64,000 bases of DNA. Origin: Actinocatenispora rupis. GTDB lineage: Bacteria > Actinomycetota > Actinomycetes > Mycobacteriales > Micromonosporaceae. Of this stretch, positions 50,302 to 57,511 are shown piece by piece. Positions within the stretch are counted from its first letter, which is position 1. Each line of letters starts with the position of its first letter. Position numbers and translations under genes: made by a program. The stretch is taken from assembly GCF_016861975.1 (NCBI RefSeq), contig NZ_BOMB01000050.1, forward strand, positions 1 to 64,000. Reading direction: 5' to 3'. The notes under the pieces are model-generated. The model worked only from the letters and a program-made list of their open reading frames with translations. It made no database searches and was not told the DNA's origin.

Positions 50302-50322
50302 CGCCGGCTCGCCCCGCACCGT

Positions 50323-50358
50323 CGCCGCCGTTGTCAACCGGGGTTGACAACGGCGGCG
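50323..50358. promoter_or_regulatory. 17-bp-arm palindrome, operator site 1 / possible terminator
   Basis: A perfect inverted repeat of 17-bp arms around GG, containing GTCAAC-N4-GTTGAC at 50333-50348. It follows the Lrp-gene stop by 21 bp and precedes the HTH gene by 21 bp. It may act both as terminator for the Lrp gene and as operator for the HTH gene. Confidence 0.7.
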
Positions 50359-50360
50359 GT

Positions 50361-50376
50361 GTCAACGTAGGTTGAC
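50361..50376. promoter_or_regulatory. Operator site 2, GTCAAC-N4-GTTGAC
   Basis: A second copy of the same GTCAAC-N4-GTTGAC site, centred 28 bp from the first and ending three bases before the HTH gene start. Binding here would block translation initiation region transcription. Two equal sites suggest negative autoregulation. Confidence 0.7.
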
Positions 50377-50379
50377 GGC

Positions 50380-50601
50380 ATGGATACCGGAGTGCAGCTG
50401 GCACAGGCGGCGGGGAGCAAGGACCCGGCGGTCGGGTTGAGGGCCGTGCGGGCACTGCGGGAGCTGGCCGAGCGGCTGGAGTCACTGCAGGTGGCGAGCG
50501 CGCGCGAGGCCGGCTGGTCGTGGGAGGCCATCGCGGTGCTGCTCGGCGTGAGTCGCCAGGCGGTGCACAAGAAACACGCCAGGAGTCGGAGGGATCGGTG
50601 A
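50380..50601 (+). CDS. Small HTH protein, likely autoregulator
   Basis: This 73-residue protein has an N-terminal helix rich in Ala/Leu/Arg (RAVRALRELAERLESLQV) and a C-terminal helix-turn-helix (WSWEAIAVLLGVSRQAVHKKH). It has the size of a DNA-binding module without ligand domain. Its stop overlaps the Clp N-domain gene (GTGA). It very probably binds the two GTCAAC sites upstream. In M. tuberculosis ClpC2, as I recall, a DNA-binding part and Clp N-domains form one protein; here they are separate genes. Confidence 0.8.
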   Translation: MDTGVQLAQAAGSKDPAVGLRAVRALRELAERLESLQVASAREAGWSWEAIAVLLGVSRQAVHKKHARSRRDR

Positions 50602-50603
50602 CG

Positions 50604-51158
50604 ATGTTCGAGCGGTTCACCAAGGAGGCCCGCCGGGCGATCGTGATCGCCCAGGAGGAGGCCAGGACGATGCGGCACGACCACATCGGTACGGGTCACG
50701 TCCTCGTCGGGATCCTGGCCGCGGAGGAGCCCGGGCCGGGGATGCGGGCGCTGCTCGGTCTCGGCGTCGACCCGGCGGCCGTCCAGCGGTACGTGGCACG
50801 GCTCGGCGCGGAGCCGTACGACGATCTCGACGCGGACGCCCTCGCCACGGTCGGCATCGACCTCGACGAGGTACGCCGGGCGGCGGAGGACGCGTTCGGT
50901 CCGGGCGCGCTGGACCGGCCGCGCAGGTGGCAGGCCGGGCACATCCCGTTCGACGCGATGGCGAAGAAGTCTCTCGAACTGACCCTGCGCGAGACGATCC
51001 GCCGGGGTGACCGGGAGATCTGCGACGCCCACGTGCTGCTCGGCATCGTCCGGGCGCAGCCGAACGACGCGACGTCCGCCCTGCGCGCGCTCGGCGTCGA
51101 CCTGACCGAGGTGCGGGCGGCGGTCGAGCGGGAGCTGGACGCCGGTCAGGCGGCCTGA
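50604..51158 (+). CDS. Stand-alone Clp N-terminal domain protein (ClpC2-like)
   Basis: This 184-residue protein begins MFERFTKEARRAIVIAQEEA, closely like the N-domain of ClpC at 25881, and has two Clp_N repeats (residues ~1-70 and ~105-180; KKSLELTLRETIRRGDREIC). It has no AAA+ ATPase modules. ATG 50604 matches the ClpC start; GTG 50598 overlaps the HTH stop and is an alternative. Such proteins may act as adaptors or as decoys that bind ClpC-targeting antibiotics or phospho-arginine clients. Confidence 0.85.
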   Translation: MFERFTKEARRAIVIAQEEARTMRHDHIGTGHVLVGILAAEEPGPGMRALLGLGVDPAAVQRYVARLGAEPYDDLDADALATVGIDLDEVRRAAEDAFGPGALDRPRRWQAGHIPFDAMAKKSLELTLRETIRRGDREICDAHVLLGIVRAQPNDATSALRALGVDLTEVRAAVERELDAGQAA

Positions 51159-51311: not shown

Positions 51312-52409
51312 GTGGAACAACTGGACCGCGGCGACGACGCCGACCGGGCCTGGGTGGCCGAGGCCGTACGCAAGGTGGCGGCGGACGCGAACCGCAGCGC
51401 CGACACGCACCTGCTGGCTTTCCCGCTCCCGTTCGACTGGGGCATCGACCTGTACCTGAAGGACGAGTCGGTGCACCCGACGGGGTCGCTGAAGCACCGC
51501 TTGGCGCGTTCGCTGTTCCTGTACGGGCTGTGCAACGGCTGGATCCACGAGGGTACGACGATCGTCGAGGCGTCGTCCGGCTCCACCGCCGTCAGCGAGG
51601 CGTACTTCGCGCGCATGCTGGGGTTGCCGTTCGTGGCGGTGATCCCGGCGGGCACCAGCCCGCAGAAGATCGAGCTGATCGAGTTCGCGGGTGGCCGGTG
51701 CCACCTCGTCGAGGACGCCGCCACCGTGTACGACGAGGCCCGCGCGCTGGCGACGAAGCTCGGCGGCCACTTCATGGACCAGTTCACGTACGCGGAGCGG
51801 GCGACGGACTGGCGCGGCAACAACAACATCGCCGAGTCGATCTTCGAGCAGCTCGCGCTGGAACGGCATCCGGTGCCGGCGTGGATCGTCGTCGGCGCCG
51901 GCACCGGCGGCACGTCGGCCACGATCGGCCGTTTCCTGCGCTACCGGCAGTACGCGACGAGGCTCGCGGTGGTGGACGTGGAGAACTCGGCGTTCTACGA
52001 CGGCTGGGCGCAGGACGACCCGGACCACGCCGTACGGTGCGGATCGCGGATCGAGGGCATCGGCCGGCCGCGCGTCGAACCGTCGTTCCTGCCCGGCGTG
52101 GTCGACCGGATGATGCGGGTACCGGACGCGGCGTCGATCGCCGCCATGCGCGCCGGCGCGACCCTGCTCGGCCGCCGCATCGGCGGATCCACCGGTACCA
52201 ACCTGTGGGGTGCGTTCGCGCTGATCGCGGAGCTGCGCGCGGCGGGACGTACCGGCAGCGTGGTCACGTTGCTGTGCGACTCCGGCGACCGCTACGGCCA
52301 CACGTACTACGACGACGGCTGGCTGGCGGGGCAGGGCCTCGACCCGGCGCCGTACCTGGCGACCGTGGAGCGGTTCCTCGCCACCGGCGACTGGCGCGAA
52401 CCCCGCTGA
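51312..52409 (+). CDS. cds1: PLP-dependent L-cysteine desulfhydrase (Cds1-like)
   Basis: This 365-residue cysteine-synthase-fold enzyme has the PLP lysine Lys61 in [40 protein letters not shown] and the glycine loop [13 protein letters not shown]. It resembles mycobacterial Cds1, which turns cysteine into pyruvate, ammonia and H2S. GTG 51312 is the likely start. It is convergent with the next gene, 3 bp apart. Confidence 0.85.
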
Positions 52410-53106: not shown

Positions 53107-56100
53107 TCAGGCCAGGAACACCCAGAGCCCGACCCCGATCAGGATCAGCACGAACGCGCCCACACCCAGGATCATCAGCGTCAGCCGGTTCTTCGACTCC
53201 TGGCGCTCGTCGCCGGCGACGTCCGGCGGCGCGTTCCGCGGGCCGAGGATGTGCCCGGTCAGCGAGCCCGTCGTCTCCAGCGGATTCAACTCCGCGTACG
53301 CCGGGGTCTGGCCCGGCGGCGTCTGCGGTTGTGCCGCGGGCTGGTGCACCGGCGGTGGCTGCTGCCCAGGCGGCGCCTGCGGTACCACCGGCTGCACTGA
53401 CGTCGCCGACCCGTCCGGTCGCAGGGTGTTGGCGCGGTCCTTGTCCGTCCACGGGCGCGGCGGCGGATCGGTCGCGAACCGCTGCTCCTGCCGCTGCTCC
53501 TGGTACTGCTGCGGCTGCTGGTACCGGGCGTCCTGGTGCTGGGTGTCCTGGCGCTGGGTGTCGTGGTGCTGGGCGTTGTGGTGCCCGGGGTCCTGGTACC
53601 CGGCGTTGTGGTGCCCGGGGTCCTGGTACCCGGTGTCGTTGCGTCCGGGGTCCTGCTGCTGTGGCTGCTGGTGCCGGGGATCCGTGTGCCGGTGGTCGTA
53701 CCCGCCGGACGCGCCGCCGCCGAGCGCCCCGTACGCGTCGGGGCCGCGGTCGTCGGCCGCCTCGTGCGCCGCCGGAACGCCGCCGTGCGCGGCCGGGCTG
53801 CCGTAGACGCCCTGCGGCGCGCTCGTGCCGTATGCCGGGCCGCGGTCGTCGGAAAGTTGCTCGGTGAACCGCCGCTCCGGCGTCAGCACGGCGTGCTGGT
53901 CCGCCGGACCGGAGCTGGCGGACGGGGCCCCCGCGGAGCCCTCGTGCCGCCCGTACTGCTCGGGCCGTTGGCCCGCGATGTCGTCGGGCCGCTGGCCCGT
54001 GTCATGGTGCCGTTCCGGGTGGTACGCCCCGTCGCGGTCGGGCCGGTTCTCTGCCGGCTGCCGCGCGTCCGCCCGGTCGGAATCCCGTGGGTACTCCTGG
54101 TACCCGGCGGGCGGCTCGGCCGCCCGGTTGTCCTGTGGCCAGTCCGGGCGTGCCCCCGGACCGCCACCCCCGGTGCCGCCCCCCTCACCGCCGTCCGGGC
54201 GGCCGGACTCGACCCGCCCGGAACCACCGGCCGTGCCGCCCTGCCACCACGAACCGGGCTCCGGCTCCTGCGTCCGCGGCTGCTCCACCGGGTACGCCGG
54301 GGGTGCCACCGGCGGGGCCGACCGCGGCCGGTCCTGCGGGTACCCCGGGTCGGGCGCACCGTACGTGTTACGCCGCGGCAGCTCCGTACCCGGATCCTGG
54401 TAGCCGGGCTGCTGCTCCTGCGGCGCCCAACCCTGGTCGGCCGGCGGCTGGCCCGGCGCCGCCCAGTCGGGCTGCCGCGACGGAACCTGCTCCTGGTACT
54501 GCCGCCCCGGCTCCTGATGACCCGGGTACTGCTGGTCGCCCGGCTGCCGAGGCTGCTGGAACCCCGGCTGCTGCTGGAACCCCGGCTGCTCCTGGTACGC
54601 CGGCGGCCGGTCACCCGGCACCTCGCCCCCGGGCTGCTGCTGCCCCGCGGACCACCAGTCGGACGGCCGGCCCTGCTCAGCCGACCACGCGCCGTCCTGC
54701 TGCCCGCCCCGCTGCTCCGGCTGCCCGTACTCCTGCGCCGGCGGCGCCGACTGAGGCGAGCCGTACTCCTGCGGCGTCCCGTACTGCTGCGCCGGCGGTG
54801 CCGACTGCGGCGTCCCGTACTGCTGCGCCGGCGGAGCGGACTGCGGTGCCCCGTACTGCTGCGCCGGCGGCGCCGAGTGAGGCGAGCCGTACTCCTGCGG
54901 CGTCCCGTACTGCTGCGCCGGCGGTGCCGACTGCGGTGCCCCGTACTGCTGTGCCGGCGGCGCGGACTGTGGCTGCCCGTACTCCTGTGCCGGCGGCGCG
55001 GACTGTGGCTGGCCGTACTGCTGGGCCGGGGGAGCGGACTGCGGCGACGGCGCGGACTGCGGCGCCGGGCCGCCCGCTGCCATGAACGCGGCCATCTCGT
55101 CCTGGCTGAGCTGGTTCGCGGCCGGCACGGTGGCGACACCGCGGGCGGCCATCGCCGGTACCTCGTCGCCCGGCCAGGCCGCGGCGGGCGGGGGCCACGC
55201 CGCGGGCGGCGCATCCTCGCTGGGCCGGTCGGCGGCGGGCTGCTCGACGGGCCGCCCGTACACGTGCTCGGCGGCCGGCTGCGGCGCGGACTGCTGCGGG
55301 TCGGGCTGTCGCGGGTCGGCCTGCCGCTCGCCGCCCGGCTCGTCCCACGCGTTGGCGAACGCTGCCCACGGCGAGTCGCCACGCTGCCCGGCGTCGCCCT
55401 GCTCGGGCTGTGCCGCGGGCTGCTCCGCCTGCGGCGGCGCGTAGCGGTCGACGGGCTGCTGGTCCGGCACGCCGAACGCAGCCGGCTGCTCGTTCTGCTG
55501 TGGCGCGTAGCGGTCGACGGGCTGTTGGTCCGGCACGCCGAACGCAGCCGGCTGCTCGTTCTGCTGTGGCGCGTGTCGGTCCACAGGCTGTTGGTCGGGG
55601 ACGCCGAACGCGGCCGGCTGCTCCGCCTGCGGTGGCGCGTACCGGTCCACGGGCTGCTGGTCGGGTACGCCGAATGCGGCGGGTTGTTCGGCCTGCGGCG
55701 GTGCGTACCGGTCGACGGGCTGTTGGTCGGGGACGCCGAACGCGGCCGGCTGCTCGTTCTGCTGTGGCGCGTAGCGGTCGACGGGCTGTTGGTCGGGTAC
55801 GCCGAACGCGGCAGGCTGCTCCGCCTGCGGGGGCGCGTACCGGTCCACGGGCTGTTGGTCGGGGACGCCGAACGCGGCGGGCTGTTCGGCCTGCGGCGGT
55901 GCGTACCGGTCGACCGGCTGTTGGTCGGGTACGCCGAAGCCGCCGGCGGCGGGCTCGTCACGGAACCAGTCGCCGCGCTGCTCCGCCGGTACGTCGGCGG
56001 GCGCCGGCTCGGCGGGCTGGTCGGACTGCGCCGCCCAGGCCGCGGGTGCGGGCTCGTCGTCGGTCGGCGACGCGGGCCACTGGCCGGCGGGCTGGTCGGC

Positions 56101-57186
56101 CTGTGGCTGCTGGCCGGCGGGAGTCGCCCACGGGTCGGGCGGCAGGTCGTCGGAGTCGTACCCGCCGATGTCGTTGGCGGGTTCCGGCGCGGCGGGCGCG
56201 GGCTCCGGCGGGGCGGCCGGCGGTGCCGAGGCGGGTGCGCCGGCGCCGTCCCAGATCGGCCCGTCGACGGGCGGCGGTGGCGGCTGGTACGGCTCGGGCA
56301 GCGCCGCGGCCTCCTCGGCCGCGCTGCGCGGTTCGCCGCCCCAACCCGGCGGGGGCTCCGGCGGCTGGTCGGTCGGCGCCTGGTCGGCGGCACCGTCGAC
56401 GGGCGCCTGACCCCACGTGTCGGTACGCGCCGGCGCGGGCTCGGCGGGCGGCTGACCCCACGGGTCGCCACCGGCGTCGGGCTGCTGCGGAGCGGGGTTG
56501 GCCGGCTGGCCGCCCCAGTCACCGGCGGGCTGCTGGTCCGGCGCGGCCTGTCGGCCCCACTGGTCGGGCTGCTGCTGGCCCCACTGGTCCTGCTGGCCGC
56601 CGGGCTGCGGCGCGCGCTGCTCCGGCTGACCCCACTGGTCCTGCTGCTGGTGGCCGCGCGGATCGGGCTGGCCGGCCGGCTGCTGCCCCCACTGGTCGGG
56701 CTGCTGGCCCCACTGCTCGGGCTGAGCGGGCTGCTGCTGACCGCGCGGGTCCGGCTGGCCCCACTGGTCCGGCTGCTGACCGCGATGGTCGGGTTGGCCG
56801 GCGGGCTGCTGGCCCCACTGGTCGGGCTGGCCCTGCGGCGCCCAGCGGTCGCCCTGCGGCGCGCCCTGGTCACCGCCGCCCCACTGACCGGGCTGCTGCT
56901 GTGCGGGCGCACCCCACTGACCGGGCTGCTGCTGCGGGCTGTCGGCCCACTGGCCCTGGCCGGACGCGGGCTGACCCCAGACGCCGGACTGCTGCTCACC
57001 GCCCCAGGCGTTCCCCTGGTCGGGCTGCTGGCCCATCGGCCAGGACGGCGCGCGGCCGCCGTGGTCCCCCGGGGCCTGGTACGAGCCGGCAGCCGGCGGG
57101 TCGGCGACGGGGGTGCCGCACCGGGGGCAGATGCCCACGGTCGGCGGCACGCGCTCGCCACACGTCGAACACGTCCGGTCCTCCAT
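53107..57186 (-). CDS. Giant zinc-ribbon, Pro/Gln-rich repeat protein with C-terminal TM
   Basis: This 1359-residue protein starts with a zinc ribbon (CSTCGERVPPTVGICPRCG, four Cys), followed by over 1200 residues of Pro/Gln/Gly/Ala low-complexity sequence and a final TM helix (ILGVGAFVLILIGVGLWVFLA), so it is tail-anchored. Inside are QPDQWGQQ-type repeats, eight 22-residue units starting FGVPDQQPVDR, and eight SAPPAQ[QE]YG units. ATG 57186 has an AGGAGGG site. The cytoplasmic tail may form a condensate or scaffold. Function unknown. Confidence 0.75.
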   Translation of the reverse strand: MEDRTCSTCGERVPPTVGICPRCGTPVADPPAAGSYQAPGDHGGRAPSWPMGQQPDQGNAWGGEQQSGVWGQPASGQGQWADSPQQQPGQWGAPAQQQPGQWGGGDQGAPQGDRWAPQGQPDQWGQQPAGQPDHRGQQPDQWGQPDPRGQQQPAQPEQWGQQPDQWGQQPAGQPDPRGHQQQDQWGQPEQRAPQPGGQQDQWGQQQPDQWGRQAAPDQQPAGDWGGQPANPAPQQPDAGGDPWGQPPAEPAPARTDTWGQAPVDGAADQAPTDQPPEPPPGWGGEPRSAAEEAAALPEPYQPPPPPVDGPIWDGAGAPASAPPAAPPEPAPAAPEPANDIGGYDSDDLPPDPWATPAGQQPQADQPAGQWPASPTDDEPAPAAWAAQSDQPAEPAPADVPAEQRGDWFRDEPAAGGFGVPDQQPVDRYAPPQAEQPAAFGVPDQQPVDRYAPPQAEQPAAFGVPDQQPVDRYAPQQNEQPAAFGVPDQQPVDRYAPPQAEQPAAFGVPDQQPVDRYAPPQAEQPAAFGVPDQQPVDRHAPQQNEQPAAFGVPDQQPVDRYAPQQNEQPAAFGVPDQQPVDRYAPPQAEQPAAQPEQGDAGQRGDSPWAAFANAWDEPGGERQADPRQPDPQQSAPQPAAEHVYGRPVEQPAADRPSEDAPPAAWPPPAAAWPGDEVPAMAARGVATVPAANQLSQDEMAAFMAAGGPAPQSAPSPQSAPPAQQYGQPQSAPPAQEYGQPQSAPPAQQYGAPQSAPPAQQYGTPQEYGSPHSAPPAQQYGAPQSAPPAQQYGTPQSAPPAQQYGTPQEYGSPQSAPPAQEYGQPEQRGGQQDGAWSAEQGRPSDWWSAGQQQPGGEVPGDRPPAYQEQPGFQQQPGFQQPRQPGDQQYPGHQEPGRQYQEQVPSRQPDWAAPGQPPADQGWAPQEQQPGYQDPGTELPRRNTYGAPDPGYPQDRPRSAPPVAPPAYPVEQPRTQEPEPGSWWQGGTAGGSGRVESGRPDGGEGGGTGGGGPGARPDWPQDNRAAEPPAGYQEYPRDSDRADARQPAENRPDRDGAYHPERHHDTGQRPDDIAGQRPEQYGRHEGSAGAPSASSGPADQHAVLTPERRFTEQLSDDRGPAYGTSAPQGVYGSPAAHGGVPAAHEAADDRGPDAYGALGGGASGGYDHRHTDPRHQQPQQQDPGRNDTGYQDPGHHNAGYQDPGHHNAQHHDTQRQDTQHQDARYQQPQQYQEQRQEQRFATDPPPRPWTDKDRANTLRPDGSATSVQPVVPQAPPGQQPPPVHQPAAQPQTPPGQTPAYAELNPLETTGSLTGHILGPRNAPPDVAGDERQESKNRLTLMILGVGAFVLILIGVGLWVFLA
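54726..55066 (-). repeat. SAPPAQxYG coding repeats
   Basis: Eight copies of a roughly 10-residue unit SAPPAQ[QE]YG are encoded here, some joined by TPQEYGSP spacers. Boundaries are approximate. Confidence 0.7.
55411..55938 (-). repeat. Eight 66-bp tandem coding repeats
   Basis: Eight exact-length 66-bp units encode 22 residues each, starting FGVPDQQPVDR and ending in a P-Q-A-E-Q or Q-Q-N-E-Q variant. Synonymous differences between units show they have been under protein-level constraint or have diverged since duplication. Confidence 0.85.
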
Positions 57187-57511
57187 CAAGCCCTCCTGTG
57201 GCATGTCCACCGACCGCTCAACCCACACCGTGCCATACCGCTGCGATCACCGGCAGCGGGCCGAACGCCGCCCCGGCCGCGCCATCGACCAGGCCCCGTG
57301 AGCCTACGAGGCGAACGCCCGGCCAGGTGGAGAGGGACCACCCAGTTTGCCCACGTGCTGGGATGCTCCCCGCAATTCACCCCCGGGTACTCCCGGCTGG
57401 TACGGCTCCGCCACGAGCCGTGGCGGCGATCCGCGCACACCGGTACCCGACGCGGTCGGCTCATCCGATCCGTCGCCGGTGTCCGTTTTCCGTGGAGTGG
57501 GACGCGTGACC
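57187..57511. other. Intergenic region upstream of repeat protein
   Basis: These 325 bp contain the promoter region of the zinc-ribbon repeat protein and the 3' flank of the NlpC gene. I see no gene or clear hairpin. Confidence 0.4.

Follow-up and report, generated by a model that had tools for sequence, protein, structure and literature searches.

A two-gene operon of a small helix-turn-helix protein and a stand-alone ClpC N-domain in Actinocatenispora rupis: an apparent paralogue of the one-chain ClpC2 switch

Mycobacterial ClpC2 (Rv2667) is reported, in the passages cited here, to bind cyclomarin and to repress itself (PMC10030653). A 64,000-nucleotide stretch of the genome of the soil bacterium Actinocatenispora rupis (contig NZ_BOMB01000050.1, positions 1 to 64,000; hereafter the window) carries what appears to be a two-chain relative: a gene for a 73-residue helix-turn-helix (HTH) protein and a gene for a stand-alone ClpC N-domain (Clp_N), downstream of twin GTCAAC-N4-GTTGAC operators. 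Like this operon, ClpC2 joins an HTH-type N-domain to a ClpC N-domain and has GTCAAC/GTTGAC half-sites; its twin operators lie over the -35 and -10 elements beside a leaderless start codon, a layout predicted for the window from sequence, and its ligand contacts are Phe, Phe and Glu, as in the window Clp_N. ClpC2 is, however, one chain with the operator CGTCAAC-n5-GTTGACG, whereas the window operon has two chains and an N4 spacer (PMC10030653). Mycobacterial ClpC3, like the window Clp_N, is a small stand-alone homologue of the ClpC1 N-domain, but the passages on it mention neither an HTH partner nor an operator (PMC10864484, PMC10746685, PMC10892018, PMC10914731). RelI, the antitoxin of RelS-RelI (PDB 9SDC), belongs by profile comparison to the same small HTH family (1.6e-9), but its partner is an RNase toxin, and the cited passages name fusions to DUF3887 and DUF2812 but no Clp_N or exporter partner (PMC13284704). 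The cluster A mycobacteriophage immunity repressor 7R6R shows weak HTH similarity, with RQAV aligned at the recognition helix, but it is monomeric, recognises an asymmetric site and carries a second, Stoperator, DNA-binding domain (PMC9283540); the window HTH protein ends at 73 residues with no such second domain. The ClpC2 switch, its operator and stand-alone ClpC3 are already known. The literature search did not find an HTH gene as the partner of a stand-alone Clp_N, an N4/N5 rule, both forms in one genome or an exporter-linked form.

The reading we favour, with moderate confidence, is that the HTH protein is an autorepressor controlling a decoy for ClpC1 ligands in a leaderless two-gene operon. 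An earlier note, made from the letters alone, had described a 73-residue HTH gene and a ClpC N-domain gene on separate chains, and both open reading frames (ORFs) are present as described. The Clp_N ORF matches Pfam Clp_N in two stretches (5.1e-19), and its top PDB match is the ClpC1 N-domain 3wdb (8.5e-27). The 73-residue ORF gave only sub-threshold HTH matches in Pfam; its AlphaFold2 model (mean predicted local distance difference test score 92) sets helices 48-55 and 59-67 in an HTH arrangement, with the modelled recognition helix at about residues 59-67 (SRQAVHKK). The same note held that the genes are coupled by GTGA. The genes do abut, but the overlap itself is uncertain, because relatives of the Clp_N protein start at MFERF, which corresponds in the window to ATG 50604, 2 nt past the HTH stop; GTG 50598 is thus a doubtful start and ATG 50604 the more likely one.

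The two operators have identical cores and lie 28 bp apart from start to start. Nowhere else in the 7.83-Mb genome does the exact site occur, and the reversed control has none; composition alone predicts about 0.13 single sites and 3e-8 twin sites per genome. Chance palindromes were ruled out by this genome-wide uniqueness and by the expectation from composition. When two mismatches were allowed, the window held three matches against a mean of 2.0 by chance, i.e. no enrichment, and it is the exact pair, not the mismatched matches, that stands out. The left site does have the 17-bp arms ascribed to it, set about a 2-bp centre, although in 3/3 same-genus loci the operator cores are kept and the arms are not; the other site abuts the start codon, as had also been stated.

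An operator-first, protein-blind scan for the exact twin site was run on 84,980 named species genomes and listed at least 120 twin sites; all counts of its loci given here are among the matches listed. The next gene encodes an HTH of the window type at 101 of the 120, three further sites (L073, L075, L101) are truncated at the locus end with an ORF that begins HTH-like, and 16 precede other genes (DUF998-like, hydrolase, monooxygenase and others). Clp_N is the next gene in 74 of the 101 HTH loci, each time as a separate ORF and fused in none, and Pfam confirmed Clp_N in all four divergent partners tested (L047, L140, L143 and the Thermoleophilia metagenome-assembled genome (MAG) L112). These 74 loci include, besides those of Actinomycetota, loci from Devosia, Ensifer, Shinella, Aminobacter, an alphaproteobacterial MAG and a Granulosicoccaceae MAG. 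The arrangement had been called a distinct design, which holds for the two chains; the pair is no rarity, occurring widely across Actinomycetota and also in some Proteobacteria. Two HTH loci (L059, L132) end ahead of any visible second gene, and the other 25 lack Clp_N as the next gene. In 15 of these an ABC (ATP-binding cassette) exporter-like ORF follows (Pfam ABC_membrane and ABC_tran in 3/3 tested, the others by eye), its frame being broken in L106; we take all 15 to belong to Microbacteriaceae. The remaining 10 comprise nine Arthrobacter or Pseudarthrobacter and one Acidimicrobiales MAG, and in two of them (L077, L145) the ORFs that follow the HTH are alike, that of L145 giving only a sub-threshold HD match. 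Among 11 exporter-type or solo-HTH genomes searched for Clp_N, eight had only ClpC- or ClpB-length frames, two had a stand-alone Clp_N elsewhere and one was unclear, its frames being broken. The HTH and its operators are retained without Clp_N in some genomes.

The distance from operator end to start codon is 2-4 bp in 94 of the 101 HTH loci and the gap between operators 11-13 bp in 99. The right operator contains TANNNT in 94 loci, the left one in 17; of the 94 with a right-hand TANNNT, 92 place it 17-18 nt from the -35 of the left operator. This layout suggests that the -35 and -10 elements lie inside the two operators, with a leaderless start at 50380, and occupancy of either operator should then block RNA polymerase. 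A simple sigma-70 promoter scan reported none.

The kinship with ClpC2 proposed in the earlier note, which saw a split ClpC2 system, is supported by the half-sites, the twin layout, the promoter overlap and the leaderless start (passages of PMC10030653). The pair is not, however, this genome's own ClpC2 cut into two chains: the possibility that it is the only ClpC2 of the genome was ruled out by a one-chain ClpC2 of 236 residues on another contig (C14, L006:1246-1956), which has its own N5 operators, GTCAATCTGTACTTGAC and GTCAACTTACCGTTGAC, upstream. Since the genome carries the fused form too, the split operon is, by sequence, its paralogue. Among 298 genomes from the order to which the window belongs, 139 had an exact N5 doublet, 82 an exact N4 doublet and 55 both, with zero in reversed controls. 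Every N5 locus fetched (30/30) led into a fused ClpC2 and every N4 locus fetched (30/30, the window's own included) into a split HTH, 27 of the latter with Clp_N. A profile of split HTHs matched the N-terminal part of all 30 fused proteins (8.6e-9 to 2.1e-11). In the HTH-domain tree the fused forms make one clade (Shimodaira-Hasegawa-like approximate likelihood ratio test 99, on few columns), and the Clp_N tree requires three changes among ClpC1, fused and split forms, placing all but one of its 18 fused rows next to ClpC1. In genus g51, which we take to be Mycobacterium, a single ClpC2 chain carries the same domains, its Clp_N part being preceded by the recognition helix GVTKQAAQKRF, and the operators are N5, in agreement with the published ones. 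A spacer of N4 for split and N5 for fused forms would thus keep the paralogues apart by one base pair. One locus, G376:C1:2724416-2724488, has three consecutive N5 operators rather than two.

DNA binding by ClpC2 has been assigned to the C-domain on the strength of R185A/R189A, the N-domain being described as a dimerisation module (Taylor et al., passages of PMC10030653). Contrary to this assignment, our comparisons suggest that the operator is read by the HTH, and not by Clp_N or the ClpC2 C-domain, because the same operators persist where Clp_N is absent, because the published N-domain crystal lacks the recognition helix, because the arginine equivalent to R189 is absent from most split proteins and both arginines from the window genome's fused ClpC2, and because the weakly related, DNA-bound phage repressor 7R6R uses the aligned residues for base contacts. 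The chain of 8ADA (the Rv2667 N-domain) aligns in register with the split-HTH profile (9e-4 in A1 or 3.8e-3 in A3), and its last residue falls at ...GKSMGV; relatives in g51 extend past this end into the recognition helix, so the crystal fragment appears to stop just short of it. A single-sequence search with the window HTH did not match 8ADA. An arginine at the R189 position is found in just 26 of the 67 split proteins compared; at the R185 and R189 positions the fused ClpC2 of the window genome has S and D, yet it keeps one perfect operator. The split-HTH profile matches 7R6R at about 2e-3, with RQAV of the phage protein aligned to SRQAV of the window; the reported base contacts of 7R6R, R45, Q46 and W50 (passages of PMC9283540), correspond at a constant offset of 20 to R, Q and W of the stretch that contains this RQAV. 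Two points weigh on the other side: the window Clp_N carries both R185/R189-equivalent arginines, and the published behaviour of R57A and of a C-domain-only variant is compatible with either reader (passages of PMC10030653). An HTH region in ClpC2 is already mentioned in the RelI paper (passages of PMC13284704).

The contacts of ClpC1 with cyclomarin are taken here as F2, F80 and E89, which align with ClpC2 F96, F172 and E181. The window Clp_N has F, F and E at these columns, and of 67 split partners (the 74 minus seven truncated or odd-length ORFs) 65 retain F2, 55 retain F80 and 51 retain E89. Because these residues are kept, our best guess is that the window Clp_N is a decoy or holdase like ClpC2, whose cyclomarin contacts are reported as F96, F172 and E181 (passages of PMC10030653). 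ClpC3 probably represents the split Clp_N partner, because the small Clp_N proteins seen in nine g51 genomes were fused ClpC2 and, in five of the nine, a split form, which the HTH gene preceded in 5/5. According to passages of the respective papers, small ClpC3 is raised together with ClpC2 by cyclomarin (PMC10892018), targeting ClpC1 for degradation induces both (PMC10746685), cyclomarin and ecumicin bind both (PMC10864484), and cold shock raises clpC3 (MSMEG_3761) 4 to 11-fold (PMC10454040). If ClpC3 is the split partner, drug induction of the split pair has already been seen, though the passages do not tie it to its HTH. An induction test with rufomycin, as proposed earlier, may fail for a reason unrelated to the split-ClpC2 idea, because ilamycin (rufomycin) and ecumicin bind ClpC2 of M. 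tuberculosis without inducing and only cyclomarin induces (passages of PMC12913811).

Under the autorepressor reading, the HTH protein would bind each GTCAAC-N4-GTTGAC site, presumably as a dimer, and its occupancy would block its own promoter. On derepression, the stand-alone counterpart of the ClpC1 docking domain would draw cyclic-peptide antibiotics, unfolded proteins or adaptors away from ClpC1. Ligand-loaded Clp_N may signal to the HTH, which is the least certain step, and the spacer would insulate the split system from the fused one. A possible alternative, which we hold to be a little less than evenly poised, overlaps this reading and differs solely in making Clp_N necessary: Clp_N would be a ligand-responsive co-repressor, an HTH-Clp_N complex occupying the operators until it is released by a drug or unfolded protein bound to Clp_N. 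This is the model of the earlier note and the two-chain counterpart of the ClpC2 mechanism. The two domains form one chain in ClpC2, and the genes are kept as neighbours in the 74 loci, those of Alphaproteobacteria and of one gammaproteobacterial MAG among them, with ends that often overlap or abut. Yet eight genomes noted above retain the HTH and its operators and show no stand-alone Clp_N, and the HTH is better conserved than its partner (mean column identity 58% vs 40%, in 26 HTHs and 25 partners). Sensing by an HTH that has no Clp_N would be accounted for if the HTH were itself a substrate of ClpC1P, so that repression reports protease activity, cyclomarin-like hyperactivation destroys the repressor, and Clp_N or the exporter is mere payload. 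ClpC1 ligands do alter proteolysis, but the mechanism reported for ClpC2 is direct interference of the ligand with DNA binding (both from passages of PMC10030653), and we regard this explanation as unlikely. That the sites belong to another regulator, with the HTH an incidental neighbour, draws on the 16 twin sites before other genes and on the eight of nine GTCAAG-pattern doublets described below that also precede other genes; it is very improbable given that the HTH immediately follows 101 of the 120 twin sites and that all 12 searched genomes with exceptional doublets encode the HTH too, albeit one common in the group. A toxin-antitoxin pair of the RelS-RelI kind with the HTH as antitoxin, suggested by the profile match to RelI and by the proposal that RelI emerged from ClpC2 (passages of PMC13284704), is likewise very improbable, as the partner is a ClpC N-domain, protective in ClpC2, and not a RelE-like toxin.

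The exceptional twin sites could possibly form a trans regulon of the HTH. Twin N4 operators lie upstream of DUF998-like membrane proteins in L050, L074, L108, L126, L133, L138 and L152 (Pfam for L138, the rest by likeness) and upstream of alpha/beta hydrolases in L054, L085 and L118 (Pfam for L118). Eight ORFs near the doublets of seven exceptional loci gave no TetR match in Pfam, and the same run identified two regulated genes, DUF998 and alpha/beta hydrolase. Twin N4 sites (290-332) also precede the HTH gene of L358 (IMG/VR 3300031902_000417), whose ORFs look phage-like by eye. At 2393-2516 this sequence has five tandem 27-bp copies of GTCAACCGATGTTGAC within a long ORF, which are either a decoy array or a coincidence of an acidic STDVD repeat.

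Base 6 of the half-site was compared with the recognition helix in 67 HTHs found by protein. In the repeat set of 66 rows (it omits two R-type rows that lack a site and gains L354, whereas L353 fell below its cut-offs), K accompanied C6 in 55/55, Q accompanied G6 in 7/8, H accompanied A6 in 2/2 and R accompanied C6 in 1/1. Only two independent pairs lie on well-supported branches, and the covariation, not significant after phylogeny, is suggestive only. The advance prediction that a Q-type HTH follows each GTCAAG doublet failed as written in 394 genomes: such doublets occurred in nine, eight before other regulators or genes (one of them, L352, with a weak HTH-family match 0.5 kb on) and one (L353) before a Q-type HTH of the family. 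A GTCAAA doublet occurred in one of the 394, before an H-type family HTH and Clp_N. The family HTHs directly after a GTCAAG or GTCAAA doublet fit the residue-base rule in 2/2 cases, but a doublet is no predictor of a family member. Split pairs L317 and L319 of g51 have GTCAAG-N4-CTTGAC sites and SRQAVHQK in place of SRQAVHKK. In the window's own genome, twin GTCAAG-N4-CTTGAC sites (C8:104088-104131) lie 3 bp ahead of a seemingly leaderless 65-residue regulator of another HTH type.

The features of the locus are collected in the table. The neighbours of the operon are an Lrp/AsnC-type regulator and an L-cysteine desulfhydrase, and a RelE-like toxin is not adjacent. The downstream gene (51312-52409) was identified by NCBIfam as the L-cysteine desulfhydrase Cds1, at 640.5 bits against a cut-off of 600. 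From 25881 onward, about 24 kb from the operon, lies clpC1 (an 873-residue open frame, N-domain matched), and on the minus strand at 53107-57228 there is a long Pro/Gln-rich ORF with tandem FGVPDQQPVDRYAPPQ repeats.

Table. Positions of the operon's genes, operators and putative promoter elements in the window
Feature	Position	Strand	Remarks
Left operator GTCAACCGGGGTTGAC	50333-50348	.	Forms the core of an extended inverted repeat (17-bp arms); overlaps putative -35
Putative -35 TTGACA	50344-50349	+	Inside left operator and one base beyond; predicted from layout
Right operator GTCAACGTAGGTTGAC	50361-50376	.	Ends 3 bp before start codon
Putative -10 TAGGTT	50368-50373	+	Inside right operator; 18-nt spacer; ATG 6 nt further on
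73-residue HTH repressor, ClpC2 N-domain/RelI type	50380-50601	+	ORF, profile comparison, AlphaFold2 model; repressor role predicted
Stand-alone ClpC N-domain protein (Clp_N)	50598-51158	+	186 residues from GTG 50598; more likely 184 residues from ATG 50604

Taken more broadly, and tentatively, the family may be a modular defence switch, in which one small HTH on GTCAAC half-sites serves interchangeable payloads (a ClpC1 decoy, an ABC exporter and perhaps, in trans, DUF998 membrane proteins and hydrolases), paralogues in one cell are insulated by one base pair of spacer (N4 split, N5 fused), specificity is retuned by one recognition-helix residue (K/GTCAAC, Q/GTCAAG, H/GTCAAA), and the DNA-binding site of ClpC2 moves from the C-domain to the HTH. 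ClpC1 is a tuberculosis drug target, and decoys of the ClpC2 type weaken drugs directed against it. Should the HTH prove to be the reader, the current account of cyclomarin derepression would need revision, and the split pair would be a simple system for testing, with the repressor alone or the decoy alone. The N4/N5 rule would serve as an annotation key for fused and split forms. The existence of an exporter-linked form hints at a wider role of the module in actinobacteria, as a switch responding to stress or antibiotics.
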